Below, in pieces: positions 17,174-34,886 of a stretch of DNA of 45,429 nucleotides. How positions within the stretch are numbered: the stretch's first letter is position 1; the number at the start of each line of letters is the position of its first letter. The notes under the pieces are model-generated. The model was not told the origin of the DNA. It saw nothing but the letters and a program-made list of their open reading frames with translations, and searched no databases. The translations under genes were made by a program, and so were the position numbers. This DNA comes from Oscillospiraceae bacterium (GTDB lineage Bacteria; Bacillota; Clostridia; Oscillospirales; Ruminococcaceae): positions 1 through 45,429 of the forward strand of contig JAFUIS010000004.1 in the NCBI GenBank assembly GCA_017468365.1. Reading direction: 5' to 3'.

Positions 17174-17179
17174 CAAATA

Positions 17180-17212
17180 AAAAATCCCCGAACATTGTTC
17201 GGGGATTTTTTT
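17180..17212. terminator. Bidirectional intrinsic terminator
   Basis: AAAAATCCCCGAAC / GTTCGGGGATTTTT. It ends the lipoprotein on plus and the long branched-chain operon on minus (stop at 17217). Confidence 0.93.
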
Positions 17213-17216
17213 GTGT

Positions 17217-19727
17217 TCAGTTATTGCCTTTTGCGGTATCAATGGAAACAGCATTTTCCAGTCCAAGGCGTTTTGCGGCTTCTTCGCGCATTTTGTATTT
17301 AAGAATTTTTCCGGCGGCATTCATGGGGAAGCCTTCGACAAATTCGATATACTTCGGCACTTTGTGCCTTGCAAGACGGCCTTTGATGTATTCGGTCATT
17401 TCTTCAACGGTCATGCTGCCAGGTTCTTTAAGAACGATCTGCGCCATAATTTCTTCGCCGTATTTTTTATCCGGAACGCCGATTACCTGAACGTCTTTTA
17501 CATTTTCGTGAGTATAGATGAATTCCTCTATCTCTTTGGGATAAATGTTCTCTCCGCCGCGGATTATCATATCTTTAAGACGGCCGGTGATTTTATAGGT
17601 TCCGTCATCGCTTTTGCAGGCAAGGTCACCGGAATGGAGCCAGCCTTCGTCGTCGATGGTTCCTGCGGTGGCTTCGGGCATTTTATAATAGCCTTTCATA
17701 AGGTTATAGCCGCGTGAACAGAATTCACCGTTGACCCCGTTGGGAACTTCGTCGCCGGTTTCGGGATCCACAACTTTTGTTTCAACGTGGGGAAGGTTAT
17801 AACCGACGGTGTAGCAGCGAAGATCGATGGGGTCTTCCCAGGCGGAAGTGGTGCTGCCTGGAGAAGATTCCGTTTGTCCGTAAACGCTGATGATTCCGCG
17901 CATATTCATTTCGTCCGGCTGGGCGGCACGCTTCATAAGTTCGGGAGGACAGCCGGCACCTGCCATGATTCCGGTACGCATATAGGAAAAATCGGTGGAG
18001 CGATAGTCCGGGTGGTTGAACATAGCAATAAACATTGTGGGAACGCCGTGGAAACAGGTTATCCTTTCGCGGGTTATGCAGGCGAGAGAGCTCTTTGCGG
18101 AAAAATAGGGAAGGGGACAAAGAGTTGCGCCGTGGGTCATGGCGGCGGTCATTGCAAGCACCATTCCGAAGCAGTGGAACATAGGTACCTGAATCATCAT
18201 TCTGTCGGCGGTGGAAAGTCCCATTCGGTCGCCGATGCATTTTCCGTTGTTGGCAACGTTATAGTGGGTGAGCATTACGCCTTTGGGAAAACCGGTGGTG
18301 CCGGAAGTGTACTGCATGTTGCAAACGTCGTCGGGACGAACCGCGGCGGACATTCTTGCGATTTCTTCTTCCGAAACGGTTTCAGCGCGCTCCATAGCTT
18401 CATCGAATTCAAGACAGCCGGGCATTTTGAAACCGACGGTTATTACGTTGCGAAGGAACGGAAGTTTTTTGCAGTGAAGAGGGGCGCCGGGTTTTGTGCT
18501 TTTGATTTCAGGGCAAAGCTCATTGATTATCTGCGCATAGTTGGAATCCAGGCAGGAATCTATCATTACAAGAGTGTGGGTATCGGACTGGGAAAGAAGA
18601 TATTCCGCTTCATGGATCTTATAAGCGGTGTTGACCGTTACAAGAACGGCACCGATTTTGGTTGCCGCCCAGAAAGTGATATACCATGCAGGAACGTTGG
18701 TTGCCCAGATAGCGACCTTGCTTCCGGCTTTTACGCCCATGGCAACAAGCGATCTTGCAAAGCGGTCTACGTCTTCGCGGAATTCGGAATAGGTCCTTGT
18801 GTAATCAAGGGTAGTATAGCGGAAGGCATACTGGTCCGGGAATTCTTCGCAAAGTTTATCAAGAACCTGGGGGAAAGTGAGGTCTATAAGGGAATCTTTT
18901 TTCCAGATATATTGACCGGTGTGGTCAAAATTATAATAAAGACTTCTCTTTTTTCCTCGGGGGCTTTCAAAACGGTTCATATAGTTTACGAAATGGGGGA
19001 AGATGACTTCGTATTCCTGAAGGTCCTCCATCCATTCCGGCTTCCATTCAAGGGAGATGAAACCGTTATAGTCAATGGAAGAAAGAGCGCGCATCATTTC
19101 GGCAATGGGCATATTACCTTCGCCGATGAGGTTATAGGTGTTTTCGTCGTCCGAATCGCGGAGATGAACGTGTTTTACATATGCGCCGAGGTTGCGGATG
19201 GTCTTATCAGCAGATTCTCCGTTGGTGCGGTAGGGGTGATGCATATCCCAAAGAGCCGCAAGATTGTCGGAAGCAAATTCATCCATAAGTGCGCGGAGCC
19301 TTGCGGTATCGGAATAGATTCCGCTGGTTTTGATAAGAAGAGTGACGTTTATGTTTTCGGCATAGGCGATAAGCTCGGCAACGTTTTCTTTTACGAGTTT
19401 TTCGTTCTCATTGAGCGCAACGGCGCAGACGTAAGGAACTTTAAGATTATGGGCAATATCCATAAGTTCCTTTACGGTTGCGATATTTCCGTTTTCGGAA
19501 ATATCGCAGGAAGTATCAAGACAGGGAACAGAGATACCTTTTTCGCGAAGCAACCTTACGGTTGCGGCGGTATTATATTTGTGAAGCGGACAGCCTTTTT
19601 CGGTGAATTCCGGACGCTTCTGGATATTATAAAGCTCGATTCCGGAAAAACGCATTTCTTCGGCGGTTTCGATAAGCTCGTCCCAGCCGAGAGACTGCCA
19701 GCCGCGGGTAGAGAAAGAAAGATTCAT
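17217..19727 (-). CDS. TIM-barrel isomerase-like domain fused to AMP-forming acyl-CoA synthetase
   Basis: 836 aa, two modules. Residues ~1-255: sugar phosphate isomerase/epimerase (AP-endonuclease-2 fold) TIM barrel, with the usual metal-site strand ends LWDMHHPYR, VKHVHLRDSD, NLIGEGNMP and FISLEWKPEW. Residues ~270-830: ANL acyl-CoA synthetase, with P-loop YTSGTTGFPKG, VYGQTESSP, the hinge-region GRLKDMIIRGGENIYPKEIE and catalytic K807 in NAAGKILKYK. Closest in look to medium/short-chain acyl-CoA ligases. The fusion is unusual: the barrel could bind a sugar-like ligand, regulate the ligase or be a separate enzyme. It overlaps the upstream 2-isopropylmalate-synthase-like gene by 4 bp, so the two are coupled. 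Substrate not known; isovalerate is one guess from the operon. Confidence 0.85.
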   Translation of the reverse strand: MNLSFSTRGWQSLGWDELIETAEEMRFSGIELYNIQKRPEFTEKGCPLHKYNTAATVRLLREKGISVPCLDTSCDISENGNIATVKELMDIAHNLKVPYVCAVALNENEKLVKENVAELIAYAENINVTLLIKTSGIYSDTARLRALMDEFASDNLAALWDMHHPYRTNGESADKTIRNLGAYVKHVHLRDSDDENTYNLIGEGNMPIAEMMRALSSIDYNGFISLEWKPEWMEDLQEYEVIFPHFVNYMNRFESPRGKKRSLYYNFDHTGQYIWKKDSLIDLTFPQVLDKLCEEFPDQYAFRYTTLDYTRTYSEFREDVDRFARSLVAMGVKAGSKVAIWATNVPAWYITFWAATKIGAVLVTVNTAYKIHEAEYLLSQSDTHTLVMIDSCLDSNYAQIINELCPEIKSTKPGAPLHCKKLPFLRNVITVGFKMPGCLEFDEAMERAETVSEEEIARMSAAVRPDDVCNMQYTSGTTGFPKGVMLTHYNVANNGKCIGDRMGLSTADRMMIQVPMFHCFGMVLAMTAAMTHGATLCPLPYFSAKSSLACITRERITCFHGVPTMFIAMFNHPDYRSTDFSYMRTGIMAGAGCPPELMKRAAQPDEMNMRGIISVYGQTESSPGSTTSAWEDPIDLRCYTVGYNLPHVETKVVDPETGDEVPNGVNGEFCSRGYNLMKGYYKMPEATAGTIDDEGWLHSGDLACKSDDGTYKITGRLKDMIIRGGENIYPKEIEEFIYTHENVKDVQVIGVPDKKYGEEIMAQIVLKEPGSMTVEEMTEYIKGRLARHKVPKYIEFVEGFPMNAAGKILKYKMREEAAKRLGLENAVSIDTAKGNN

Positions 19728-21139
19728 ATATTTTCCTCCTCATAAACGATTTTGTTGAGTGCGTTGAGGTAGGCGAGGATACTTGCGCCGACGATATCGG
19801 TGGAAGTACCGCGTCCGGAATAGATTTTTCCGTCGGAAACGAGTTTTACAACAGTCTGACCCATTGCCTCACGGCCTTCGGTGACGGACTGTATCTGGAA
19901 ATCGTCAAGTTCGTAATGAAGACCGATTATTTGTTCGATTGCAAGGAAAGCGGCGTCGATAGGTCCGTCACCGATGCAGATTCCTTCAAGGGCGTGGTCG
20001 CCTTTCATGATGCGAAGGTGCGCGGAAGAGGTGAGGATATTGCTTGCGTTGATAACGTAGCTTTCGAGTTTATAGGTGGGCGGGACCTGAAGAGCGGAAG
20101 AAGCAACGATCGCATCAAGCTCTTTGGAACCGACTTTCTTTTTGAGCACGGCGATCTGTCTGAAAGCATCAAAAACCTTTGCACTGTCCTCTTCGGAAAG
20201 GTCGTAACCAAGGCGTTCAACGGCTTTGAGCACGGCTTCGATATTGTCGTGCTCAGTGAGCACCCATTCACCTTCGTCGCGGACGGAATCATCAAAGGGG
20301 GAATTTTTGCTTTTTTCGGTATGACAAAGACGGTCAATCTGGGCGATAACACGATTGATTTCAGCCATGCGAACGGAACCGCAGGCATCAAAGGTGCTGC
20401 CTTTTGCATCAAGGATCTTTGCGATTTTTATAAGGCGAACGTTGTCGGTGGCAACGGAAGTTGCTTTTACTTCGTCTGCACCGGAACGAACTGCGGAAAC
20501 CGCGCAGGAATCTGCCATGGAAAGAGCATCGGAGCAGCTTACGCCAACGCTAACTTTTTTAAGTTCGGGAACGGTTTCAAAAATTTTGTCAATGAAGGCG
20601 GAAAATTCGTCAGGAAGCATAACACCTGCGGTATCACAGAAGGTCACGACGGAAACACCGGCTTCGATAGCGGTTTTTACCGCGGATTCAAGGAAAGGTG
20701 CGTCGCTTCTTGTGGCATCGCCCGCAACAAATTCAACATCGTTACAGAATTTTTTACATTCAGTAACGGTGTTTTTTATTGCTTCAAGCATGGCTTCGGG
20801 TTTTTTATGGGAAAGATATTCCATCTGCATAGGGCTTACGGGTGCGCAAACCTGAAGACGGGGGTTCTTGGCTTCTTTAAGGGCGTTCCAAACGGTTTCG
20901 GCAGAACCTTCTTCAAGCGCAACGGGAACGGCAACAATGGCGCTTTTGACCGCTGCAGCGATGGATTTTATAAGAAGGCTGTCGATTTTGAGATTTTCGA
21001 TGGGGTGTAGCTCAATGACAGATACCTCAAGACGGTCAAGTAGCTTTGCAAGCTCGATCTTTTCTCTGAAGCTGAGAGAAAAGTCGATTCCTTTTCCGGT
21101 CTGTTTCATGGTAACGTCGCTGATTCTGATGTTCCTCAT
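19724..21139 (-). CDS. Degenerate 2-isopropylmalate synthase-like protein with intact LeuA regulatory domain
   Basis: 471 aa; AAGGAGA 7 bases before the ATG. N-terminal HMGL-like TIM barrel (~1-290) and C-terminal LeuA_dimer domain (~350-468: GDGPIDAAFLAIEQ, SVTEGREAMGQ, SGRGTSTDIVGAS, YLNALNK). The barrel has lost what active Claisen-condensing members need. The usual TLRDGEQ is TMKQTGK (10-16), so the metal-ligand Asp is Gln and the Arg is Lys. The metal-binding HxH (HCHND) is SCSDA (201-205). The GERAGN loop reads SVATDN. CDTAGVMLP is kept. It therefore looks like a pseudoenzyme or a repurposed enzyme that still carries the leucine-binding module. It sits between ilvE/VOR and the TIM-ligase, behind an attenuator. 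Confidence 0.85.
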   Translation of the reverse strand: MRNIRISDVTMKQTGKGIDFSLSFREKIELAKLLDRLEVSVIELHPIENLKIDSLLIKSIAAAVKSAIVAVPVALEEGSAETVWNALKEAKNPRLQVCAPVSPMQMEYLSHKKPEAMLEAIKNTVTECKKFCNDVEFVAGDATRSDAPFLESAVKTAIEAGVSVVTFCDTAGVMLPDEFSAFIDKIFETVPELKKVSVGVSCSDALSMADSCAVSAVRSGADEVKATSVATDNVRLIKIAKILDAKGSTFDACGSVRMAEINRVIAQIDRLCHTEKSKNSPFDDSVRDEGEWVLTEHDNIEAVLKAVERLGYDLSEEDSAKVFDAFRQIAVLKKKVGSKELDAIVASSALQVPPTYKLESYVINASNILTSSAHLRIMKGDHALEGICIGDGPIDAAFLAIEQIIGLHYELDDFQIQSVTEGREAMGQTVVKLVSDGKIYSGRGTSTDIVGASILAYLNALNKIVYEEENI

Positions 21140-21165
21140 CTAAACATCTCCTTTTTATCGGAATA

Positions 21166-21223
21166 TAAAAAAATCCGGGAAAACCTTATTGAAAGGTCCC
21201 CGGATAAAGAAAACGCTGACCTT
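21166..21223 (-). promoter_or_regulatory. Transcription attenuator before the IPMS-like gene
   Basis: On the minus strand: terminator ATCCGGG…ACCTT-TCAAT-AAGGT…CCCGGAT (21173-21205) followed by seven T. An upstream AAGGTC (21218-21223) can instead pair with GACCTT (21193-21198), the 5' arm of the inner terminator helix. The two foldings exclude each other. No promoter fits in the 25 bases between the terminator and the gene's RBS, so all transcripts must pass it. Confidence 0.7.
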
Positions 21224-21260
21224 AAAAAAGTGATTGAAAAAATATAATTAATATACCCAT
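21222..21260 (-). CDS. Candidate leader peptide MGILIIFFQSLF
   Basis: A 12-codon ORF whose UAA overlaps the antiterminator arm of the downstream attenuator. It is rich in Ile (ATA, ATT, ATA), Leu (TTA, CTT) and Phe (three). A ribosome finishing at the stop would cover the AAGGTC arm and allow termination; stalling at early Ile/Leu codons would free it. The RBS (AAGTGG) is weak. A TTGACA at 21280-21285 lies too close to give a transcript containing the ATG, so read-through from ilvE would be needed. Confidence 0.4.
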   Translation of the reverse strand: MGILIIFFQSLF

Positions 21261-21342
21261 TCAACCACTTTTTAAGACTTTTGTCAATATTAATTCTTGT
21301 TAAATGTGAATATTTATACAAGAACTGTTTGTATATTATGCA

Positions 21343-22419
21343 TCAATCGCAAACTTTATAAGTCCAGCCAAGGGTGTCTTCGACTTTGCCGCTCTGGATA
21401 CCGTAAAGGGTATCATAAAGCTTCTGGGCAACAGTACCGATTTTTCCTTCGTTGATGGTGATTTTTTTGTCTTCCCAACCCATTGAACCAATGGGGGAAA
21501 TAACTGCAGCGGTGCCGCAGCCCCAGGCTTCTTCAAGGGTGCCGTTTTCGGCAGCTTCAAAGAGTTCTTCAGCGGTGATAAGGCGTTCTGCAACTTCGAT
21601 TCCCCAGCTTCTTATAAGGTCGATGCAGCTCTTTCTGGTGACGCCGGGAAGAATGGAACCGCTGAGTTCGGGAGTAAGAACTTTTCCGCCGACTTTGAAC
21701 ATTACGTTCATTGCGCCGACTTCTTCGACATATTTGCGCTCTACGCCGTCAAGCCAAAGTACCTGAACATAGCCCTTTTCTTCTGCAGCCTGACCTGCAC
21801 GAAGAGATGCGGCATAGTTTCCGCCGCATTTGGTATATCCGGTACCGCCGCGTACCGCACGTACGTCGCGGCTTTCAACGTAGATATCAACGGGGCTCAT
21901 TCCGTTGGGATAATAGGAACCGGAGGGGCTGCAGATGATGCAGAAGAGATAGGTGTTGGAAGCATGTACGCCGAGATGTGCATCGGTTGCAAAAATGAAC
22001 GGGCGAATATAAAGGGAAGTGCCGGGATTGTGGGGTACCCATTCGGCATCAACGGCGACGAGTTCCTTGATAGCTTCAACGAAAATATCTTCCGGAACGG
22101 CGGGCATGCAAAGACGCTCGTTGGAATTCTGCATACGTTTTGCGTTTTCATAAGGACGGAAAAGATGGATGGAACCGTCTTCCCAGCGATATGCTTTCAT
22201 ACCTTCAAAAACTTCCTGGGCATAGTGAAGAACCATGCAGCTGGGGTCGAGTTCGAGAGGAGCATAGGGAACGATCCTTCCATCGTGCCAACCTTCGCCG
22301 GCGGTATAGTTCATAAGGAACATGTGGTCGCTGAAGGTGCGACCGAAACCGAGTTTTCCTTCATCGGCGGGTTTGGTTTTGGGATTCTGGGTATATGTTA
22401 CGGGAAAAGTGAATTCCAT
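21343..22419 (-). CDS. ilvE: Branched-chain amino acid aminotransferase
   Basis: 358 aa from the ATG at 22419 (MEFTFPVTYTQNPK; AGAAGG 9 bases upstream); this is the long (~340-360 aa) BCAT form. It interconverts Val/Leu/Ile and their 2-oxo acids with glutamate/2-oxoglutarate. PLP lysine K197 lies in GGTGYTKCGGNYAAS. The family blocks LHYAQEVFEGMKAYR, FRPYENAKRM and SGSILPGVTRKSCIDL are intact. It follows the VOR gamma gene by 22 bp and is the transamination partner of that enzyme. No terminator follows before the leader of the next gene. Confidence 0.96.
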   Translation of the reverse strand: MEFTFPVTYTQNPKTKPADEGKLGFGRTFSDHMFLMNYTAGEGWHDGRIVPYAPLELDPSCMVLHYAQEVFEGMKAYRWEDGSIHLFRPYENAKRMQNSNERLCMPAVPEDIFVEAIKELVAVDAEWVPHNPGTSLYIRPFIFATDAHLGVHASNTYLFCIICSPSGSYYPNGMSPVDIYVESRDVRAVRGGTGYTKCGGNYAASLRAGQAAEEKGYVQVLWLDGVERKYVEEVGAMNVMFKVGGKVLTPELSGSILPGVTRKSCIDLIRSWGIEVAERLITAEELFEAAENGTLEEAWGCGTAAVISPIGSMGWEDKKITINEGKIGTVAQKLYDTLYGIQSGKVEDTLGWTYKVCD

Positions 22420-22441
22420 GTTGTTCTGCCTTCTTTCAAGA

Positions 22442-22984
22442 TTATTCCTGAGTATAGTTTTTGCCCAGTTCGAGCGCTTTGAGGTTGAGGTCGATAAGGT
22501 CCGCGTGTCTTGCGGGAACTGCACTGCGAAGTCCCTGTTCAAGGTGTTCTTCGGAAACGCAGCCGGTCTCTTTTACGATAGTGCCGAGAAGGATCATGTT
22601 TGCAAGGGTGGGTGCGCCCATATCCTTTGCAAGCTGAGTGGCGGGAATGTAATAAACGTCGATGTCGTCGCGTTCGACTTTTCTTCCGATAAGAGCGGAG
22701 TCGATAAAGAGTTTTCCGCCGGCAGCGACCATGTTCTCATATTTATCAAGAGAAGGGTTGTTCATTACCATTACTACGTTCGGGTGGTCGACGATGGGGG
22801 AACCGATGGGTTCATCGGAAAGGATGACGGTGCAGTTTGCGGTGCCGCCGCGCATTTCGGGTCCGTAGGAAGGAAGCCAGCTGAGCTGACGGTCTTCGGC
22901 AAGACCTGCGTGAGCAAGAACTTTTCCGGCGAAAAGAAGACCCTGGCCGCCGAAACCGGCGATGATTATCTGATGATCAGCCAT
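22442..22984 (-). CDS. 2-oxoacid:ferredoxin oxidoreductase gamma subunit (VOR type)
   Basis: 180 aa from the ATG at 22984 ([24 protein letters not shown]), overlapping the beta-subunit stop by 8 bp. GFGGQG is the hallmark of the POR_gamma (catalytic Rossmann-like) domain. The middle contains the typical [21 protein letters not shown]. It is part of the heterotetramer with the next three genes upstream. Confidence 0.93.
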
Positions 22985-23735
22985 TGTTTTCACCGTCCTT
23001 ATCACGATATACGCCAAGAGGATAATAAGGGATCATTTTTTCATCGATCCATTCAAGAGCCTTTTGAGGAGTCATACCCCAGTTGGTGGGACAGGAAGAA
23101 AGAACTTCAACAAGGGAGAAGCCTTTTCCGTCTATCTGGTTCTGGAAAGCTTTTTTGATAGCTTTTTTAGCGTTGCGAACGTTTTTGACGTTGTTTACGG
23201 TAACACGTTCAAGATATGCGGGGCCGTCAAGCTCGCTGAGAAGTTCGCAAACGCGGATAGGAAAGCCCTGGGTCTCGGTGTTTCTTCCGTAAGGAGAAGT
23301 CTGGGTGACCTGACCGGGAAGAGAAGTGGGTGCCATCTGACCGCCGGTCATTCCGTAGATAGCGTTGTTGATGAAGATAATAGTGATGTTTTCACCGCGG
23401 GCAGCGGAATGAACGGTTTCACACATACCGATAGAAGCAAGGTCGCCGTCGCCCTGATAGGTAAAGACGATTTTGCTGGGGTCGGAACGTTTTACGCCGG
23501 TTGCAACAGCCGGTGCACGGCCGTGTGCGGCTTCGACCATATCAACGGTGAAATAGTCGTATGCCATAACGGAACAGCCAACGGGTGCAATACCGATGGT
23601 TCTGCCTTCGATTCCAAGTTCATCGATTACTTCGGCAACAAGACGATGAACGATACCATGGGTGCAGCCGGGGCAGTAATGAAGAACGGCATCGGTAAGA
23701 GCTTTCGGTTTTTCAAATACAACTGCCATTATCAT
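22977..23735 (-). CDS. 2-oxoacid:ferredoxin oxidoreductase beta subunit (TPP-binding)
   Basis: 252 aa; ATGA overlap with the alpha subunit and AAAGGAG just upstream (a second in-frame ATG lies at 23729). The TPP/Mg2+ motif is GDGDLASIGMCETVHSAARGEN…INN. The N-terminal CPGCTHGIVHR provides the Cys pair and fold typical of the short VOR/KOR beta chain. It catalyses decarboxylation of the 2-oxo acid or, in reverse, reductive carboxylation of the acyl-CoA. Confidence 0.95.
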   Translation of the reverse strand: MIMAVVFEKPKALTDAVLHYCPGCTHGIVHRLVAEVIDELGIEGRTIGIAPVGCSVMAYDYFTVDMVEAAHGRAPAVATGVKRSDPSKIVFTYQGDGDLASIGMCETVHSAARGENITIIFINNAIYGMTGGQMAPTSLPGQVTQTSPYGRNTETQGFPIRVCELLSELDGPAYLERVTVNNVKNVRNAKKAIKKAFQNQIDGKGFSLVEVLSSCPTNWGMTPQKALEWIDEKMIPYYPLGVYRDKDGENNG

Positions 23736-24796
23736 TCATCTCCTTTCACGGCTTCTTTAATGGAAGCGAGAATGTCGTCAACGGTGGTAATCATGCCGCC
23801 GACTCTGGTGCAGCCGTAAACGGGCTTTTTGCAGCGAACAGCAAGTTCGATATCCTCTTTCATCTGGCCCATGTTGAGTTCTACGGAGATGAAAGCTTTA
23901 ACTTTTTCTGCAGCGGCAAGAAGAGGCTTTTTGGGGAAGGGCCAAAGGGTGATAGGTCTTATCATACCGACTTTGATTCCCTGTTTTCTTGCTTCAAGAA
24001 TGGCGTTTCTGGAAACGCGGGCGGTGATTCCGCAGGAAACAATGCAGATTTCAGCATCCTCCATCATGAATTCTTCCCAAAGGCATTCTTCCTCTTCGAT
24101 TTTCTTATATCTTTCGTAACGCTCAAGGTTGATGTCCTCGAGTTTTTTGGGAGAAAGATAAAGGGAGTTTACGATGTGGTGTTCGCGTTTGCATTCGGTG
24201 CCGGTAACTGCCCAGTCCTTGGGAGTTTTGTCAAGTTCGACGGGGTCGGGAAGAACGACCGGTTCCATCATCTGACCCATGGTGCCGTCTGCAAGAAGCA
24301 TGCAGGGCATGCGGTATTTGTCGGCAAGCTCAAAGCCTTTAAGAGTCATATCTGCCATTTCCTGAACGGAAGCAGGAGCAAGAACGATTACGTGGAAGTC
24401 GCCGTGACCGGGTCCGCGGGTTGCAAGGAAATAGTCGGACTGGGAAGGCTGGATTCCGCCAAGTCCGGGACCGCCGCGCTGTACGTTTACGATAAGTGCG
24501 GGAAGGTCGGAACCTGCAAGGTAGGAGATGCCTTCGCATTTAAGAGCGATACCGGGGCTGGAAGAAGAGGTCATTGCACGTTTGCCGGTGGCGGCAACGC
24601 CATAGACCATGTTTATTGCCGCAATCTCACTTTCTGCCTGAAGAAAAACGCCGCCGATTTTAGGCATTTTTTTGGACATATAAGCGGCAACCTCGGTCTG
24701 AGGAGTGATGGGGTATCCGAAGTAATGACGGCATCCGGCAAGGATAGCTGCTTCGGCAAGGGCTTCGTTGCCCTTCATAAGTACTTTTTCCTGCAT
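23732..24796 (-). CDS. vorB: 2-oxoisovalerate:ferredoxin oxidoreductase alpha subunit VorB
   Basis: 354 aa from the ATG at 24796 (MQEKVLMKGNEALAEAAILAGC; GGAGG 7 bases upstream). The pyruvate:ferredoxin alpha-chain core is present: YFGYPITPQTEVAAYMS, TSSSSPGIALKCEGISYLAGS (stretch), RGGPGLGGIQPSQSDYF and GHGDFHVIVLAPAS. The latter blocks are those seen in chains annotated VorB (3-methyl-2-oxobutanoate) and KorA. The neighbouring BCAT and T-box leaders favour branched-chain substrates over 2-oxoglutarate. The operon order delta-alpha-beta-gamma is standard. Confidence 0.92.
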   Translation of the reverse strand: MQEKVLMKGNEALAEAAILAGCRHYFGYPITPQTEVAAYMSKKMPKIGGVFLQAESEIAAINMVYGVAATGKRAMTSSSSPGIALKCEGISYLAGSDLPALIVNVQRGGPGLGGIQPSQSDYFLATRGPGHGDFHVIVLAPASVQEMADMTLKGFELADKYRMPCMLLADGTMGQMMEPVVLPDPVELDKTPKDWAVTGTECKREHHIVNSLYLSPKKLEDINLERYERYKKIEEEECLWEEFMMEDAEICIVSCGITARVSRNAILEARKQGIKVGMIRPITLWPFPKKPLLAAAEKVKAFISVELNMGQMKEDIELAVRCKKPVYGCTRVGGMITTVDDILASIKEAVKGDE

Positions 24797-24809
24797 TTTT
24801 CCGCCTCCT

Positions 24810-25022
24810 TTATTTTTCAACGGTGATTACGCAGTCAGGGCACATGGTGGCACAGAAAGCGCATCCGATGCATTTTTCGGGTTCGGTGATCTCTACGGGA
24901 GAGTGACCTTTCTGGTTAAGTCTGTCACGGGAAAGCTGGAGAAGCTTTTTGGGACAGGCATTGACGCAAAGGCCGCAGCCTTTACAGAGTTCTTCTTTAA
25001 AAGTGAGTTTTGCCAAAATCAT
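24810..25022 (-). CDS. 2[4Fe-4S] ferredoxin, VOR delta subunit
   Basis: 70 aa. Two CxxCxxCxxxCP sets are visible: [14 protein letters not shown] and [13 protein letters not shown]. It is the electron-transfer subunit of the oxidoreductase encoded just downstream. Its ATG overlaps the stop of the ATPase gene by one base (TAATG), with GGAGGTG just upstream. Expected to exchange electrons with free ferredoxin in the cytosol. Confidence 0.95.
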
Positions 25023-25702
25023 TACACCTCCGTGTTCAAATGATAATATAGCTTCTGAAGAGAAAGAGGGAAAAGGTTTTCTACTCTGTCTTTCAGTTCT
25101 TCATAAAGTTTTTCGTCGCAGCAGGTCATTTTTATCGGGATTCCGAGAGCTTTTGAAACTTCCTGTGCGTAAGCACCGCTTGAAAGAACGTCTTCTGCGG
25201 TGGTTTCCGGACCGAGGTTGGTGTTGTTGACTATCCCGGTAAAAGGAAGACCGCAGGCGGAAACCATTTCGTTTACCACCTCAACGGTGTCCGCGGCGTT
25301 GCGGGTAAGAGGTCTTGCTTTGTTGATGACGAGAAGCATTTCGTAATCGTTTTCATCGATTATCGACGGAACGTATCTTCCCAGTGCAAGAGCACCGCGG
25401 TCATCGCCGCCGATATCAAGAACGCCGTATTCGGAGCGGCTGTCGATAAGTGTATAAACTTCTTTCGGCATTGCGGGAGCATCGACGTTGCTGTTCGCAA
25501 ACTGTGAGCATATAAGTTTTATTCCGTGCTCACGGAAAACCGATTCGCTGTCAAGGGTGCGGAAATAGGGGTTTACGATATCAAGGTCGGCAACCGTTAC
25601 AGGAAGGTCTTTTTCACGCAGCCAAAGGGCATAGTTGACGGCTATGTTGGTTTTTCCGCTGCCGTAATGTCCGGCGAAAAGGGTAAGTCTTTTGAATTCC
25701 AG
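25022..25702 (-). CDS. P-loop (ParA/MinD-like) ATPase, CTG start
   Basis: Reading back from the obvious ATG at 25471 the frame stays open for 77 more codons and gains a Walker A motif, GHYGSGKT, at residues 11-18. The only start compatible with GGAGGTGA on the minus strand is a CTG at 25702, 6 bases away; an in-frame TGA lies two codons further up. This gives 226 aa ([11 protein letters not shown]…). Other motifs: [12 protein letters not shown] after the P-loop, and [13 protein letters not shown] as Walker B/switch II. It resembles the CobQ/MinD nucleotide-binding fold. Placed between the acyl-CoA ligase (25 bp) and the VOR ferredoxin (overlap), it is plainly in the operon. Its role is unknown; VOR Fe-S maturation or assembly is a guess. 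Confidence 0.82.
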
Positions 25703-25727
25703 AGGAAATCACCTCCGTTTTATAAAA

Positions 25728-28016
25728 TCAAAGTTTGCTTCTTATGATTTTTCCGCTGGTGGTCTTGGGAAGTTCGGTGCGGAACTCGACTATGCGGGGA
25801 TATTTATAAGGAGCGGTATGGGTTTTTACGTAATTCTGGATATCTTTTTTGAGTTCTTCGGTGGGTTCTGTGCCTTTGGTGAGAACGATGCAGGCTTTTA
25901 CGACCTGACCGCGAACCTCGTCCGGTGCAGCACATACGCCGCATTCAAGAACGTAAGGAAGTTCCATGATGACATTTTCAATTTCGAACGGTCCGATGCG
26001 GTAGCCGGAAGACTTGATAAGGTCATCGGCGCGGCCGACGTACCAGAAGAAGCCGTCTTCATCTTTCCATGCAAGGTCGCCGGTATGATAGAACCCGTCG
26101 CGCCAGGTCTCTGCGGTTTTTTCGGGGCTGTTGTAATATTGATAGCTGAGTCCGCAGGGAAGACCTTTGCTGATGTTGATGCAGATCTCACCGGTGTCAC
26201 CGGCTGCGACTTCGTTTCCGTCGGAATCAAGAAGATGAACGTCATAAAGCGGAACGGGTTTTCCCATGGAACCGATTTTATGGCTGCCGCCGGAAAGGTT
26301 GCCGATGATAAGGGTGGATTCGCTCTGGCCAAAGCCTTCCATTATCTGAAGACCGGTGGCGTTTTCAAACTGACGGAAAACTTCGGGGTTAAGCGCTTCG
26401 CCGGCAATGGAAGCATGTTTGATGGAGGAAAGGTCGAAACGGCTCAGATCCTGTTTTATCAGCATGCGGTACATGGTGGGCGGTGCGCAGAAGGTGGTGA
26501 TGTGGTATTTTGCGAACATCGGAAGTATCTTTTCTGCATCGAATCTGTCGAAGTCATAGACGAAGATAGGCGCTTCGCAAAGCCACTGGCCGTAAAGTTT
26601 TCCCCAAAGGGATTTTGCCCAGCCGGTATCGGAAATTGTAAGGTGAAGTCCTTCCGGGTCAACACAGTGCCAATACTTGGAAGTGATGAAATGTCCCAGA
26701 GGATATTTATAGTTGTGAGCGGCGATTTTGGGATAACCGGAAGTACCGCTGGTAAAGAACATGAGCATGGGGTCATTTCCGCAGGGGGTCTCTTCGTTTC
26801 TGCGGAAAGAAGAGGAGAACATGGTGTAATCCTCGTCAAAATTGAACCAACCTTCGCGGCTTCCGTTGACGATTATTTTAGTGGTAAGGGAAGGGCTGTT
26901 GGCGGCGGCTTTGTCAACCGCTTCTGCGGTTTCGCCGTCTGCAGTACAAATTATTGCGCTGATTCCTGCGGAATTGAAACGGTATTCAAAGTCGTGCTCA
27001 AGAAGCTGGTTTGTGGCAGGAATGGCTATTGCGCCGATTTTGTGAAGGGCAAGGATAGCGAACCAGAACTGGTAATGGCGTTTGAGAACGAGCATGACCT
27101 TATCGCCGCGTTTGATTCCGAGAGATTTAAAATAGTTTGCGGCGCGGCCAGATTCCTTCTTGATATCGCGGAAGGTAAAACGGCGTTCGGTTCCGTCGTT
27201 GGAAACGTGGAGCATTGCAAGTTTATCGGGCTGTTCTCTTCCGAGAGCATCGACAACGTCATAAGCGAAGTTGAAGTTTTCTTCGTTTTTGAACGAGATC
27301 TTGGTGCAAAGTCCGTTTTTATCCTTTTCGGTAATGATGAATTTGTTATAAACGCGCTCGGTATCGTCGGAACGGTGCGGAGCATTTGGCATGATAGGTG
27401 CTTTGTGGGTGGAAGTTTCCTTCTGAGGAGTGAGAACGATTGCATAGAAAATGCAATCGTTTCCACCTACGGCAACCATTCCGTGGGGAGTAGAGCTGTC
27501 GAAATAAATGCAGTCGCCCTTATTGAGGGTTTCAGTATGTTCGCCTATCTGGATTTTAAGGCTTCCCTCAATGATAAGGTCGAATTCCTGACCTTCGTGA
27601 GAGGTGAGGGCGATAGGGCTGTGTTCGGCTTCTTCGCTGTATTTGTTGACAACGAAAAGCGGTTCGGAAATACGGTTTCTGAAGTCTGAAGCCATATTGT
27701 AATAAATCATTCCGTGGGCCTGTTCGATTTTCTGTCCCTGACCGGCACGGGTAACGGTATAGCCGCGAAGCTTAGGGCTTTGGCCTTCGATGATGTCGGT
27801 GATATCGACGCCGAGGCTTAAAGAACAGCGGTAAAGAAACGCAAAGTTGAGGTCGCTCTGACCGGATTCGCAGCGGATGTATTCCTCTTCGGAAACACCG
27901 GTGCGCTGGGCCATTTCCGCGGTGGAAAGACCGGTTATTTCACGAAGGGCGCGGATACGTTCCGCCATTTCGCGAATTTTGTATTCAAGTCCTGTTAACT
28001 GTTTTTCCTGCTGCAT
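25728..28016 (-). CDS. HTH-cupin-acyl-CoA synthetase (Val T-box controlled; ligase A)
   Basis: 762 aa from the ATG at 28016 (GGAGG 5 bases upstream). Three modules: an XRE-type HTH (about 17-70, MAERIRALREITGLSTAEMAQRTGVS…), a cupin_2 (about 120-195, HEGQEFDLIIEGSL…PHGM), and an AMP-forming acyl-CoA synthetase (about 245-762) with P-loop TSGTSGYPK (422-430), GFGQSES, GFYHTGDLAWKDEDG and catalytic K756 in TTSGKIIRSK. The first two modules form a classic HTH-cupin regulator; here they are fused to the enzyme. First gene of the operon with ATPase, VOR and BCAT, behind a T-box whose specifier reads GUA (Val). Isobutyrate:CoA ligase in valine synthesis is the inferred role. It is a close paralog of the 28407-30668 gene. 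Confidence 0.9.
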   Translation of the reverse strand: MQQEKQLTGLEYKIREMAERIRALREITGLSTAEMAQRTGVSEEEYIRCESGQSDLNFAFLYRCSLSLGVDITDIIEGQSPKLRGYTVTRAGQGQKIEQAHGMIYYNMASDFRNRISEPLFVVNKYSEEAEHSPIALTSHEGQEFDLIIEGSLKIQIGEHTETLNKGDCIYFDSSTPHGMVAVGGNDCIFYAIVLTPQKETSTHKAPIMPNAPHRSDDTERVYNKFIITEKDKNGLCTKISFKNEENFNFAYDVVDALGREQPDKLAMLHVSNDGTERRFTFRDIKKESGRAANYFKSLGIKRGDKVMLVLKRHYQFWFAILALHKIGAIAIPATNQLLEHDFEYRFNSAGISAIICTADGETAEAVDKAAANSPSLTTKIIVNGSREGWFNFDEDYTMFSSSFRRNEETPCGNDPMLMFFTSGTSGYPKIAAHNYKYPLGHFITSKYWHCVDPEGLHLTISDTGWAKSLWGKLYGQWLCEAPIFVYDFDRFDAEKILPMFAKYHITTFCAPPTMYRMLIKQDLSRFDLSSIKHASIAGEALNPEVFRQFENATGLQIMEGFGQSESTLIIGNLSGGSHKIGSMGKPVPLYDVHLLDSDGNEVAAGDTGEICINISKGLPCGLSYQYYNSPEKTAETWRDGFYHTGDLAWKDEDGFFWYVGRADDLIKSSGYRIGPFEIENVIMELPYVLECGVCAAPDEVRGQVVKACIVLTKGTEPTEELKKDIQNYVKTHTAPYKYPRIVEFRTELPKTTSGKIIRSKL

Positions 28017-28029
28017 TTTTTCCTCCGAA

Positions 28030-28338
28030 TTTTTTCTTTGGGATAAACAAAAAAGCCCGTCCCAAAGAAATGATTCTTTGAGACGAGCCGTTGAAAACAA
28101 CAAACCCGCGGTACCACTCAAATTGTGCTTTGCTTTTGCAAATGCACCGCTCGTTGGGTTCAGACAAACCCTAAGCACTTACGCAGCTTGCGCGGAAGAG
28201 TTCTACTTGCGGAAAACCGTTTTCTTCTCTTCGGCTCGGAAGCTACAATATAAAACACCCGTCATCGGCTCACATCGACCGCCGACTCTCTTTAGGCAGG
28301 AAACGTTTTATACACTCTTCGTCACAGCCTTTAATAAT
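28030..28338 (-). promoter_or_regulatory. T-box riboswitch leader, specifier GUA (Val)
   Basis: T-box sequence GAGTGGTACCGCGG (minus, 28105-28119). Stem I base: AAGGCT / AGCC with the K-turn (TGAC / CGA), lower stem GAAG / CTTC, upper stem ATAAAAC / GTTTTAT. The specifier loop 3' side is ATT-GTA-G before CTTC. By alignment with the second leader and with known T-boxes (specifier, purine, stem) the codon is GTA at 28244-28246. Terminator at 28053-28090 (GCCCGTCCCAAAGAA / TTCTTTGAGACGAGC) before a T-run. The base after UGG is U, matching a tRNA with discriminator A, as in tRNA-Val. It fills most of the 390-base gap before ligase A. Confidence 0.9.
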
Positions 28339-28344
28339 AAAAGA

Positions 28345-28373
28345 ATCATATCACTTGATTATTTTATTGTCAA
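28345..28373 (-). promoter_or_regulatory. Promoter of the Val T-box / VOR operon
   Basis: TTGACA (28368-28373), 17 bp, TATGAT (28345-28350) on minus. Transcript start expected near 28338, just before stem I. Confidence 0.88.
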
Positions 28374-28406
28374 GCAAAATTCAGAATTTTTGCATAATTA
28401 TAAATA

Positions 28407-30668
28407 TCAGAGTTTGTTTCTCTGGATCTTTCCGCTGATGGTTTTGGGAAGTTCTTCGCGGAATTCAACGATTCTCGGATATTTATAGGGTGCGGTATGG
28501 GTCTTTACGTAATTCTGGATCTCTTTTTTGAGTTCTTCGGTGGGCTCGGTGCCTTTTACAAGGACGATGCAGGCTTTTACTACCTGGCCGCGGACCTCAT
28601 CGGGTGCTGCGCATACGCCGCATTCAAGAACGTAGGGGAGTTCCATGATGACGTTTTCGATTTCGAACGGTCCGATGCGGTAACCGGAAGACTTGATGAC
28701 GTCGTCCGCTCTGCCGACATACCAGAAATAACCGTCCTCGTCTTTCCAGGCAAGGTCGCCGGTATGGTACATTCCGTCATGCCATGCATTTTTGGTCTTT
28801 TCGTCGTCCTTGTAATAACCGAGGAAAAGTCCGCAGGGGACGGAGTCGTCGGTGCGAACGACGATCTCGCCGTTTTCACCGGTAGGAACGGAGTTTCCGT
28901 CGGCATCAACAAGGTCGATATCATATCCGGGAGTGGGACGGCCCATAGAACCGGGTTTAAGAAGTCCGCCGGTAAGGTTTGCGAGAGTGAGGGTGGTTTC
29001 TGTCTGGCCGAAACCTTCTGCGATGCGAAGTCCGGTGGCTTTTTCAAACTGATAGAATACTTCGGGGTTAAGCGCTTCGCCTGCGGTGGTGGCATGCTCG
29101 ATGGAAGAAAGATCGTATTTTGAAAGATCCTGTTTTATCAGCATGCGGTACATGGTGGGCGGTGCGCAGAAAGTGGTGATATGATATTTTGCGAACATGG
29201 GAAGAATCTTTGCTGCGTCGAATCTGTCGAAGTCATAGGTAAAGACTGCGCTTTCACAAAGCCACTGGCCGTAAAGTTTGCCCCAAAGTGCTTTTCCCCA
29301 GCCGGTATCGGAAATGGTGAAATGAAGTCCGTCGCGGCGTACCCAGTGCCAGTATTTTGCGGTGACGTAATGTCCGAGAGGATATTTGTAGCTGTGGGTG
29401 GCGATTTTGGGATATCCGGTTGTGCCGGAAGTGAAGAACATGAGCATCGGGTCGTCGCCGCAGGGAGTTTCTTCGTTTCTGTGGAGGCGGCGGCTGAAGA
29501 GCTGATATTCGTTGCGGAAATCGTGCCAGCCTTCGCGGGGTTCTCCGACGATAATCTTGACGATATCGTTTTCGTAATTTTCCGCGGCAAGTTCAGCCTG
29601 GTGAGCGACGTCGCCGACACCGGTGCAAACGATAGCTTTTACGTTTGCAGCTTTGTAACGGTATTCAAAGTCGTGCTGAAGAAGCTGGTCGGTGGCGGGA
29701 ATTACGATAGCGCCGATTTTATGGAGTCCGAGAATGGAGAACCAGAATTCGGAATGGCGTTTGAGAACGAGCATTACGGTATCGCCTTTTTTGATTCCAA
29801 GGGAAGTGAAATAGTTTGCCGCCTGGGCAGAACGTTCTTTCATATCGCGGAAAGTATAGACGTTTTCGGTAAGGTCGTTGGAAACATGGACCATTGCCAC
29901 TTTATCCGGCTGCTGACGGCCAAGTTCATCAACGATATCGAAAGCAAAGTTGAACTGATCGGTATTGGTAAAGTGGAGCTTTACGGGATATCCGTTTTCG
30001 TCAGTGTCAGCCTTTACAAAAGAGTTGCTGATAAGGTCGTTTTCGTGAGTGGGCTTTTTGGGAATGATATAGTCCGCTTTTTCAGGTTTTTTGTCAGCCA
30101 TTACCATTGCAAGGAAGGTGCAGTCCTCACCGCCTACGGCGATCATTCCGTGGGGGGTAGAGGATTTATAGAAGATGCTGTCGCCTTCATTGAGAATTTC
30201 GGTATGGTCGCCGACCTTTACCATAAGGGAACCTTTGATCACAAGGTCGAATTCCTGACCGGCATGGGTTGCGGTATGGATGGGCTTGTTCTGAAGTTCT
30301 TCGGAATATTTATATGTAACCCAATAGGGTGCGCCGAGTTTTCTCTGGAAAAGAGGGGCAAGGTTCTGGATGCAGATGCCATCCTCTTCAGCAGTAACAA
30401 GACCTTCGCCTTTTCTTGTTACAGTATAATGAGAAAGGTTTGAAGCATGACCTTCGAGAAGTTCGGTAAGCTCGAGACCGAACGCAAGAGAACATTTGTG
30501 AAGAAAAGAGAAAGGAAGATCGACTTTTCCGCTCTCGTAAATTCGATACTGCTCCTCCGAAACTTCAGTGCGTTCAGCAAGCTGGGCGGGTGAAAAACCC
30601 ACTATCTCACGCATTTCACGAATTCGCTGGGCAATCTCCTTAAGAGAGGTTTCTGTCTGTTTTTTCAT
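28407..30668 (-). CDS. HTH-cupin-acyl-CoA synthetase (Ile T-box controlled; ligase B)
   Basis: 753 aa from the ATG at 30668 (MKKQTETSLKEIAQRI); AAAGGA is 10 bases before it and only 1 base before the upstream ATG, which is rejected. Same three modules as ligase A: HTH (~13-70), cupin (~115-190, HAGQEFDLVIKGSL…PHGM), ANL synthetase with TSGTTGYPK, GFGQTET, GMYHTGDLAWKDEDG and K747 in TISGKIQRNK. The last ~90 residues are almost identical to ligase A, other parts less so. Its T-box specifier is AUC (Ile), so 2-methylbutyrate:CoA ligase feeding isoleucine synthesis is inferred. No strong terminator separates its stop from the ligase A promoter, so some read-through is possible. Confidence 0.9.
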   Translation of the reverse strand: MKKQTETSLKEIAQRIREMREIVGFSPAQLAERTEVSEEQYRIYESGKVDLPFSFLHKCSLAFGLELTELLEGHASNLSHYTVTRKGEGLVTAEEDGICIQNLAPLFQRKLGAPYWVTYKYSEELQNKPIHTATHAGQEFDLVIKGSLMVKVGDHTEILNEGDSIFYKSSTPHGMIAVGGEDCTFLAMVMADKKPEKADYIIPKKPTHENDLISNSFVKADTDENGYPVKLHFTNTDQFNFAFDIVDELGRQQPDKVAMVHVSNDLTENVYTFRDMKERSAQAANYFTSLGIKKGDTVMLVLKRHSEFWFSILGLHKIGAIVIPATDQLLQHDFEYRYKAANVKAIVCTGVGDVAHQAELAAENYENDIVKIIVGEPREGWHDFRNEYQLFSRRLHRNEETPCGDDPMLMFFTSGTTGYPKIATHSYKYPLGHYVTAKYWHWVRRDGLHFTISDTGWGKALWGKLYGQWLCESAVFTYDFDRFDAAKILPMFAKYHITTFCAPPTMYRMLIKQDLSKYDLSSIEHATTAGEALNPEVFYQFEKATGLRIAEGFGQTETTLTLANLTGGLLKPGSMGRPTPGYDIDLVDADGNSVPTGENGEIVVRTDDSVPCGLFLGYYKDDEKTKNAWHDGMYHTGDLAWKDEDGYFWYVGRADDVIKSSGYRIGPFEIENVIMELPYVLECGVCAAPDEVRGQVVKACIVLVKGTEPTEELKKEIQNYVKTHTAPYKYPRIVEFREELPKTISGKIQRNKL

Positions 30669-30715
30669 AAGATGCATATCCTTTCCGGCTTCGAAAAAAA
30701 GCCAAATTTTTAAAA

Positions 30716-30986
30716 ATAAAACCCGTCCCAAGAAAAAATCTTGAGACGGGTAAAAAATCTTTTATCCGCGGTACCACTCAAATTGCAGTAATACTGCCGC
30801 CTTCAGGCTCTGACAAGCCCTATACCTTAACGCGGTCAAACGGAGAACGTCTACTGAGAAAAACTTTTCGGGTTCCCGGCTCGGAAGTGATAAGTCCATG
30901 GTTCAGCAGCTGCCGGTTTTCACCAACCACCGGTTCTCTGAAAGTCCGCCGTTCCGACCGTCTTCGTCAACGCCTTTAACAATATA
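30716..30986 (-). promoter_or_regulatory. T-box riboswitch leader, specifier AUC (Ile)
   Basis: T-box sequence GAGTGGTACCGCGG (30765-30779). The 5' block TTAAAGGC…TTGACGAAGA and 3' block CTTCCGAGCC match the Val leader. The codon immediately before purine A and the CTTC stem is ATC (30889-30891). The apical hairpin ACCGGT…ACCGGC lies in stem I. Terminator 30721-30751 (ACCCGTCTCAAGA / TCTTGGGACGGGT on minus) runs into TTTTATTTTT. It occupies the 390-base gap between ligase B and the collagen-like gene. Confidence 0.88.
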
Positions 30987-30992
30987 AAAATC

Positions 30993-31021
30993 ACTTTATC
31001 ACTTTTGAGCGGCGTTGTCAA
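30993..31021 (-). promoter_or_regulatory. Promoter of the Ile T-box / ligase B unit
   Basis: TTGACA (31016-31021), 17 bp, TAAAGT (30993-30998) on minus. Perfect -35, moderate -10; same geometry as the Val unit. Confidence 0.78.
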
Positions 31022-32641: not shown

Positions 32642-33127
32642 TTGAGCAAATATAAAAGCGATCTTTCAAACCTTGACGAAGTTTTTGAAAAAATCGAAAA
32701 CGTTCCCGAAAATCTTATAACCGTTCTTCAGAAAGCTCAGGAGATATACGGCTTTCTTCCGAAGGACGTAATGTATCATATCGGCGAAAAACTTGGTGTA
32801 AAGCCGGCAAAAGTTATGGGCGTTGCAACTTTTTATTCCCAGTTCCGTCTTGAGCCTATGGGAAAATATCTTGTTATGCTTTGCGGCGGAACGGCTTGCC
32901 ACGTAAGCGGAAGCGAAAAGGTCGCAAAAGCGGTTTTTGATTATCTTGAAACCGAAAGCGGAAGAACCACGAAGGACGGACTTTTTACGATTGAAAAAGT
33001 AGCATGTCTCGGTTGTTGTTCTCTTGCGCCGGTAATGATGATAAACGGAGAGGCTTTCGGTAACCTTACGCCCGAAAAAGCCGTTTCGATCCTTGCGGAT
33101 ATCCGCAAAAAGGAGGCGGCAGAATGA
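32642..33127 (+). CDS. NuoE/HydC-like [2Fe-2S] subunit
   Basis: 161 aa from a TTG at 32642, 8 bases after AAGGAGG (32627-32633). Thioredoxin-like [2Fe-2S] protein: CGGTAC…CLGCC supplies the four cysteines. KVMGVATFYSQF is the classic NuoE/HydC/HndA signature, and QEIYGFLPKDVM precedes it. First subunit of a three-gene complex; ATGA overlap with the NuoF-like gene. Expected to pass electrons within a cytosolic flavin-FeS complex. Confidence 0.93.
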   Translation: MSKYKSDLSNLDEVFEKIENVPENLITVLQKAQEIYGFLPKDVMYHIGEKLGVKPAKVMGVATFYSQFRLEPMGKYLVMLCGGTACHVSGSEKVAKAVFDYLETESGRTTKDGLFTIEKVACLGCCSLAPVMMINGEAFGNLTPEKAVSILADIRKKEAAE

Positions 33128-34869: not shown

Positions 34870-34886
34870 GAAAGGAGGCGGCGTTT

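Follow-up and report, generated by a model that had tools for sequence, protein, structure and literature searches.

T-box leaders point to demand-controlled synthesis of branched-chain amino acids from branched volatile fatty acids in an Oscillospiraceae bacterium

Ile and Val T-boxes on two acyl-CoA ligases

We identified on the minus strand of a 45,429-nucleotide stretch of DNA from a gut bacterium of the Oscillospiraceae (assembly GCA_017468365.1, contig JAFUIS010000004.1; hereafter the window, whose positions we use as coordinates) two acyl-CoA synthetase genes, ligases A and B, each preceded by a T-box leader. The first leader carries a specifier codon for isoleucine (Ile), the second one for valine (Val). 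Downstream of ligase B and on the same strand lie the genes of a 2-oxoisovalerate:ferredoxin oxidoreductase (VOR) and of a branched-chain aminotransferase (IlvE). Taken with the failure to find the standard branched-chain biosynthesis genes in the source genome (97.84% complete, 33 contigs), the T-boxes, their codons, the gene order and the family relations of the products, all read from the sequence, make it very probable that the locus is a demand-controlled salvage system that would turn branched volatile fatty acids into branched-chain amino acids.

The genes run on the minus strand from T-box A through ligase A, T-box B, ligase B, a P-loop nucleoside triphosphatase (NTPase), the VOR subunits (delta-alpha-beta-gamma), IlvE and LeuA2 to a third ligase, C. 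Both ligases A and B combine helix-turn-helix (HTH), cupin and AMP-binding domains (Pfam). The features are as follows:

30993-31021, minus: promoter-like site of T-box A (TTGACA-17-TAAAGT; consensus scan, 10/12)
30739-30979, minus: T-box A, specifier AUC (Ile), bulge UGGU (RF00230, 81.4 bits, E 1.2e-16; codon read in stem I beside helix GAAG/CUUC)
30721-30751, minus: intrinsic-terminator-like stem of T-box A (13-pair stem, then T run)
28407-30668, minus: ligase A, HTH-cupin-AMP-forming acyl-CoA synthetase, predicted for 2-methylbutyrate (Pfam; NCBIfam MbcS, 442 bits; 3etc)
28345-28373, minus: promoter-like site of T-box B (TTGACA-17-TATGAT; consensus scan, 11/12)
28076-28334, minus: T-box B, specifier GUA (Val), bulge UGGU (RF00230, 91.2 bits, E 3.6e-19)
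28054-28089, minus: intrinsic-terminator-like stem of T-box B (16-pair stem, then T run)
25728-28016, minus: ligase B, HTH-cupin-AMP-forming acyl-CoA synthetase, predicted for isobutyrate (Pfam; NCBIfam MbcS, 429 bits)
25022-25702, minus: P-loop NTPase, likely CTG start (NUBPL/ParA matched weakly and under the cut-off, E 3.6e-4)
24810-25022, minus: VOR delta subunit, ferredoxin-like (Fer4, E 2.7e-12)
23732-24796, minus: VOR alpha subunit (NF005507 VorB, 535 bits against a cut-off of 399)
22977-23735, minus: VOR beta subunit, thiamine pyrophosphate (TPP) type (TPP_enzyme_C, E 3.3e-21; PorB_KorB family match below cut-off)
22442-22984, minus: VOR gamma subunit (POR, E 7.7e-38)
21343-22419, minus: IlvE, branched-chain aminotransferase type II (NF009897, 498 bits against a cut-off of 307)
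19724-21139, minus: LeuA2, isopropylmalate-synthase homologue without the catalytic metal ligands, with a LeuA_dimer domain (PF08502, E 7.5e-29)
17217-19727, minus: ligase C, xylose-isomerase-like TIM barrel plus acyl-CoA synthetase, predicted for isovalerate (Pfam AP_endonuc_2 and AMP-binding)
17179-17211, minus: terminator-like stem 3' of ligase C (15-pair stem with T run)

A first-pass annotation, made from the sequence of the window, had placed each of two acyl-CoA synthetases behind a T-box, with the second running on into the four subunits of a VOR and into a branched-chain aminotransferase. The RF00230 matches and ligase domains bear out the first part; for the second, all four VOR subunit types are present, the alpha subunit passes the VorB cut-off and IlvE passes that of the type II family. 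The specifier codon of each T-box, the P-loop NTPase and the leucine (Leu) branch (the ligase pair at 17217-21139) are additions to that annotation. Homologues of the P-loop NTPase precede vorA in related loci as well. Near the Shine-Dalgarno sequence of this gene there is no in-frame ATG, GTG or TTG, and CTG is the apparent start.

The RF00230 matches of both leaders span the full model (1-219). At its 3' end each T-box overlaps its terminator-like stem (28089-28054 for B, 30751-30721 for A), the layout of a terminator that competes with an antiterminator. Promoter-like sites number 13 in the region, against 13.6 expected from shuffles, and the count of terminator-like stems likewise equals the shuffled expectation; it is therefore their position alone that argues for these sites. 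Following the T-box alignment, we took as specifier the codon that stands one base before the helix closing the specifier loop. As a control, we judged by eye the codon at the same place in the genome's ten other T-boxes, and in nine of them it suits the gene that NCBIfam names: pheS UUC, tyrS UAC, leuS CUC, trpB UGG, metN AUG (metN match below cut-off), alaS GCC, valS GUA, cysE UGC and thrS ACC. The tenth, at the locus that we call L006, precedes a TrpX-like binding protein (317 bits, cut-off 390) and reads UUC (Phe) instead of a Trp codon, which suggests that the transporter handles Phe rather than Trp. Three tRNA-Val genes (UAC, CAC, GAC) have an A before CCA, which fits the bulge UGGU; no tRNA-Ile was found among the 27 tRNA loci scanned (30 fetched, 44 matches), and the fit to the bulge concerns tRNA-Val. 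Judged by the families found, none of the 12 clear T-boxes stands directly before ileS, a gene that was itself not located, and the sole Ile T-box seen is that of ligase A; a 2008 survey called the ileS T-box universal (PMC2494555).

We followed the leaders through the best 80 of at least 575 confirmed stretches from a scan of species genomes with a profile of both ligases. Most come from metagenome assemblies named Oscillospiraceae or Clostridia, many of them from ruminants; being the nearest relatives by selection, these loci speak for conservation among close kin and say nothing on distant groups. A T-box lies upstream of ligase A in all 79 loci whose upstream DNA could be read; the motif identified 71 of these T-boxes and inspection by eye the other 8. 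These 8 leaders lack the strict motif and show, by eye, a variant T-box and a stem I in which ATC precedes CTTC. The motif likewise marks a T-box before ligase B in 38 of 55 loci. For the codons we applied a strict, codon-blind stem-I geometry (a helix of 4 flanked on both sides by a single unpaired base, a length of 80-90 and presence of the T-box motif), which kept 96 leaders from the 134 ligase genes of loci L044-L123, the window excluded. The codon before ligase A was ATC (Ile) in 65/65 leaders and that before ligase B a Val codon in 31/31 (GTA 27, GTC 4). Looser helix scoring sometimes picked a chance helix (for ligase A of the window, ATC came second), and these counts use the strict geometry. 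The arrangement recurs among these relatives: of the 63 loci with room to look, 60 have vorA no more than 4 kb downstream of their final ligase. In some family genomes (loci L022, L024 and L029) a separate HTH-cupin stretch precedes an unfused ligase, with a T-box motif upstream; two of these leaders (L024 and L029) read ATC.

Predicted substrates, the standard pathway and competing explanations

The assignment of substrates builds on kinship. The nearest solved structure to ligase A is 3etc (E 1.6e-189), which is MacsMa of Methanosarcina acetivorans, an enzyme reported to prefer 2-methylbutyrate (PMC10455477). MbcS, the best NCBIfam model of both ligases, is described as selective for 2-methylbutyrate and isobutyrate and poor with isovalerate (PMC10026030). 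From these relations we infer that ligase A would activate 2-methylbutyrate and ligase B, which is 64% identical to it, isobutyrate. With the window included, 80 ligases A and 50 ligases B form two clades with a support of 100. Twelve positions split the two sets at 85% or more; ten of these precede residue 126 and so fall in the HTH and the segment that connects it to the cupin. Within the ligase part a single position separates them fully: every A has Gly there (Gly458) and every B has Ala (Ala467), beside an invariant Trp, and MacsMa has Gly. The extra methyl group of Ala may narrow the pocket of ligase B for the smaller isobutyrate. Structure prediction for ligase A gave a poor model (mean predicted local distance difference test score, pLDDT, 66), which was set aside. 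The HTH and cupin parts fused to ligases A and B recall the ligase-repressor BirA.

The role of MbcS in Staphylococcus aureus is to prime branched-chain fatty acids (PMC10026030), and its rank as the best model of both ligases would also suit enzymes that supply branched acyl-CoA primers for membrane fatty acids. As the function of the locus we regard this as highly unlikely: control by Ile and Val T-boxes speaks against it, as do the shared layout with VOR and IlvE, which priming does not need, and the rarity of ilvC in the same genomes. Priming may nevertheless be a side use of the ligases.

Profiles of IlvC (PF01450), IlvD (PF00920), the acetolactate synthase N-terminal domain (PF02776) and aconitase/LeuC (PF00330) had no match in this genome, and the same four profiles match all 14 control genomes. 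The first-pass proposal that Val and Ile are made from isobutyrate and 2-methylbutyrate withstood those of its refuting checks that can be made on sequence. It gains sequence-level support from the Ile and Val codons, the kinship to MbcS and MacsMa, the standard genes not found, and VOR and IlvE lying behind ligase B on the same strand. In a family sample of 61 genomes, this one included, ilvC and ilvD are each present in 42 (ilvC in 30/41 at 90% completeness or more), and among the 50 of the 80 locus-bearing genomes that were checked, ilvC is found in 9 and ilvD-type domains in 14. Both are rarer with the locus than in the family sample (Fisher 7e-8 and 2e-5). The completeness control alaS is present in 49/50 of the locus-bearing genomes, G064 giving a weak match. 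Aconitase-type domains occur in 41/50, and frames of 420-452 amino acids, which we take to be the size of LeuC, in 8/50, seven of them within the nine ilvC genomes. In the family sample at 90% completeness or more, two ligase matches are seen in 6/11 genomes without ilvC and in 2/30 with it, ligases without the fused HTH-cupin part being counted.

T-boxes switch genes on when their cognate tRNA is uncharged (PMC7778990). Uncharged tRNA-Ile would stabilise the antiterminator of T-box A and let ligase A be made, and uncharged tRNA-Val would open T-box B for ligase B, VOR and IlvE. The ligases would spend ATP on the CoA esters of 2-methylbutyrate (ligase A) and isobutyrate (ligase B), VOR would use reduced ferredoxin to carboxylate the acyl-CoA, and the resulting 2-oxo acid would be aminated to Ile or Val by IlvE, a route replacing that from pyruvate (IlvB, IlvC, IlvD). 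A single VOR and a single IlvE, both under the Val T-box, would serve 2-methylbutyrate, isobutyrate and isovalerate alike. The acid substrates, the direction of VOR and the regulation in the cell are predictions here, that of the carboxylating direction because of the T-box logic and the missing pathway.

Enzymes of the 2-oxoacid:ferredoxin oxidoreductase type are reversible, and IlvE and VOR taken alone are compatible with amino acid fermentation, in which VOR would oxidise the 2-oxo acids of Val, Ile and Leu and the ligases would run toward the free acids. Such a catabolic role is very improbable, since T-boxes are activated by uncharged tRNA (PMC7778990), the opposite of what catabolism needs. 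Moreover, the codons match the product amino acids, searches of the genome for the standard biosynthesis genes found none, and AMP-forming ligases consume ATP. We also rate as improbable, if a little less so, that branched-chain amino acids are imported, the operon being a minor scavenging or regulatory system and VOR acting mainly on 2-oxo acids from the medium. Directly behind the other ten T-boxes the only transporter genes are MetN-like and TrpX-like, and no search aimed at uptake systems for branched-chain amino acids was made. Against import stand the Ile and Val T-boxes kept on the ligases across related loci, and a ligase would be useless for imported amino or oxo acids.

Several observations weigh against synthesis from branched acids under T-box control. 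T-boxes A and B both fall below the Rfam gathering score of 93, and a default Rfam scan shows neither, an E-value scan both. The gathering score is not decisive here because, of this genome's 12 clear T-boxes (E < 1e-13), only 6 reach it, those before valS, alaS, cysE and thrS falling short together with A and B. The base 3' of the codon is C, not a purine, in 27 of 65 ligase A leaders. Ligase B lacks the T-box motif in 17/55 loci, in which variant T-boxes were not inspected; there it starts 17-286 bases after ligase A (L069 and L073 have gaps of 246 and 286), against 337-539 bases where the T-box is present (37 loci measured), and such a ligase B may follow the Ile T-box. No vorA lies nearby in 3 of the 63 loci with room, and ilvE is within 6.5 kb in just 10 of 17 with room; it is also visible in many loci with less. 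The MbcS model (NF047394) is matched at about half of its cut-off of 850. ilvC is kept by 9 of the 50 locus genomes. Finally, ilvC is present in 3/36 genomes with ligases A and B and in 6/12 with A only (Fisher 0.004, two genomes with little room after A excluded). Shared ancestry weakens this association, which reflects few independent events: a tree-based test on 4 pairs gave a median p of 0.5, not significant.

LeuA2, ligase C and a probable Leu arm

The gene pair that follows IlvE probably serves a third branch, from isovalerate to Leu, with a Leu T-box in relatives. leuA2 adjoins ligase C in 42/42 loci that have both. A T-box motif is present in 41 of 49 leuA2 leaders with the window counted (41/48 in relatives), and of the 33 codon calls that these yielded (8 of the 41 gave none) 31 are Leu (CTG 19, CTC 10, CTT 2); in the two non-Leu calls (L070 and L077) a Leu codon stands by eye at the expected place. 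The leaders without the motif are those of the window, of its near kin L045, L046, L047, L049 and L050, and of L053 and L114. By eye, the window and these five near kin have a TTGACA element before leuA2 in 6/6 and a terminator-like hairpin in 4/6, the window included.

LeuA2 shares with LeuA the barrel fold and the LeuA_dimer domain, and its orthologues differ from LeuA in lacking the metal ligands. These ligands we take to be an Asp and two His; in an alignment to 3ewb, with the window included, Asp is kept in 0/40 and the His residues in 0/40 and 1/40. The C-terminal LeuA_dimer domain is well conserved in the orthologues, and in this genome none was found besides that of leuA2. A structure model of LeuA2 (pLDDT 84.7; predicted template modelling score, pTM, 0.60) retrieved isopropylmalate synthases with Foldseek, among them the Leu-bound LeuA of M. 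tuberculosis (3fig). The barrel alone superposed clearly. Whole-chain fits were loose, with root mean square deviations of up to 20 and template modelling scores no better than for barrel-only chains, and the call of the LeuA_dimer domain therefore rests on Pfam.

We rejected LeuA2 as a working isopropylmalate synthase, the metal ligands being absent and no LeuC domain found in this genome; for want of the latter, LeuA2 should not feed the usual Leu route. LeuA2 is likely a Leu-sensing pseudoenzyme, and we lean modestly toward the combined assignment of isovalerate activation to ligase C and of Leu sensing to LeuA2. A wider proposal joins all parts: 2-methylbutyrate, isobutyrate and isovalerate would each have their own ligase, under an Ile, a Val and a Leu T-box respectively, and all three would feed a shared carboxylating VOR and aminotransferase, in bacteria that for the most part have lost the pyruvate-derived pathways. 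LeuA2 would then be a one-time isopropylmalate synthase that now only senses Leu and holds back ligase C, and the HTH-cupin ligases A and B would be BirA-like, self-regulating ligase-repressors. This is tentative, and we lean slightly against its holding in full.

Relation to known systems and neighbouring genes

Branched volatile fatty acids are a growth requirement of some rumen bacteria. The conversion of these acids by reductive carboxylation was described by Allison and co-workers in 1962-1971, as cited in PMC7356843: isobutyrate to Val (Allison and Peel, 1971), 2-methylbutyrate to Ile (Robinson and Allison, 1969), and isovalerate to Leu. The overall chemistry predicted for our locus and the habitat are the same; what is proposed here in addition is that particular genes are responsible, that every acid has a ligase of its own and that control is by tRNA sensing. 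T-box leaders of ilv-leu operons are likewise known in Bacillota (PMC2494555, PMC12452182) and represent the same type of control on branched-chain amino acid biosynthesis, but they govern ilvBNC/leuABCD operons, whereas here acyl-CoA ligases and VOR are controlled, with a separate T-box for each amino acid. MbcS of S. aureus matches in predicted substrates and differs in feeding fatty acid synthesis. MacsMa (3etc) is alike in its ligase domain and has the same Gly at the position that separates A from B, but its 580-residue chain matches residues 208-751 of ligase A alone and hence has no fused HTH-cupin part, and it is archaeal. To our knowledge, T-box control is not expected for such an archaeal enzyme.

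We found no T-boxes on acyl-CoA ligases or on VOR in the open-licence literature, which agrees with the first-pass statement that none had been described on such ligases. By word search, "acyl-CoA" is absent from the main texts of PMC2494555, PMC3766115, PMC7778990 and PMC12452182, and ferredoxin (oxidoreductase) from those of PMC2494555, PMC3766115 and PMC12452182. Thus, the chemistry has been known since Allison and co-workers, and T-box-controlled genes for it are apparently new within that literature. The locus provides candidate genes for the carboxylation of branched acids, an assignment of each ligase's substrate by its T-box codon, and a testable logic of regulation. The combination of a T-box, an HTH-cupin ligase and VOR in the absence of ilvC could serve as a genomic marker for organisms that may have to obtain branched acids from their neighbours, a marker relevant for the isoacid feeding of ruminants.

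Beyond the locus and divergent from T-box A, the plus strand encodes NuoF-like and glutamate-synthase-small-subunit-like flavoproteins (33124-36917), which are possibly the ferredoxin supply for VOR; a NuoF-like gene is found likewise in the related loci L045-L047. Farther along the same strand (37727-39637) lies a gene for an ABC-F protein that scores above the NCBIfam cut-off of a ribosomal protection-like family.

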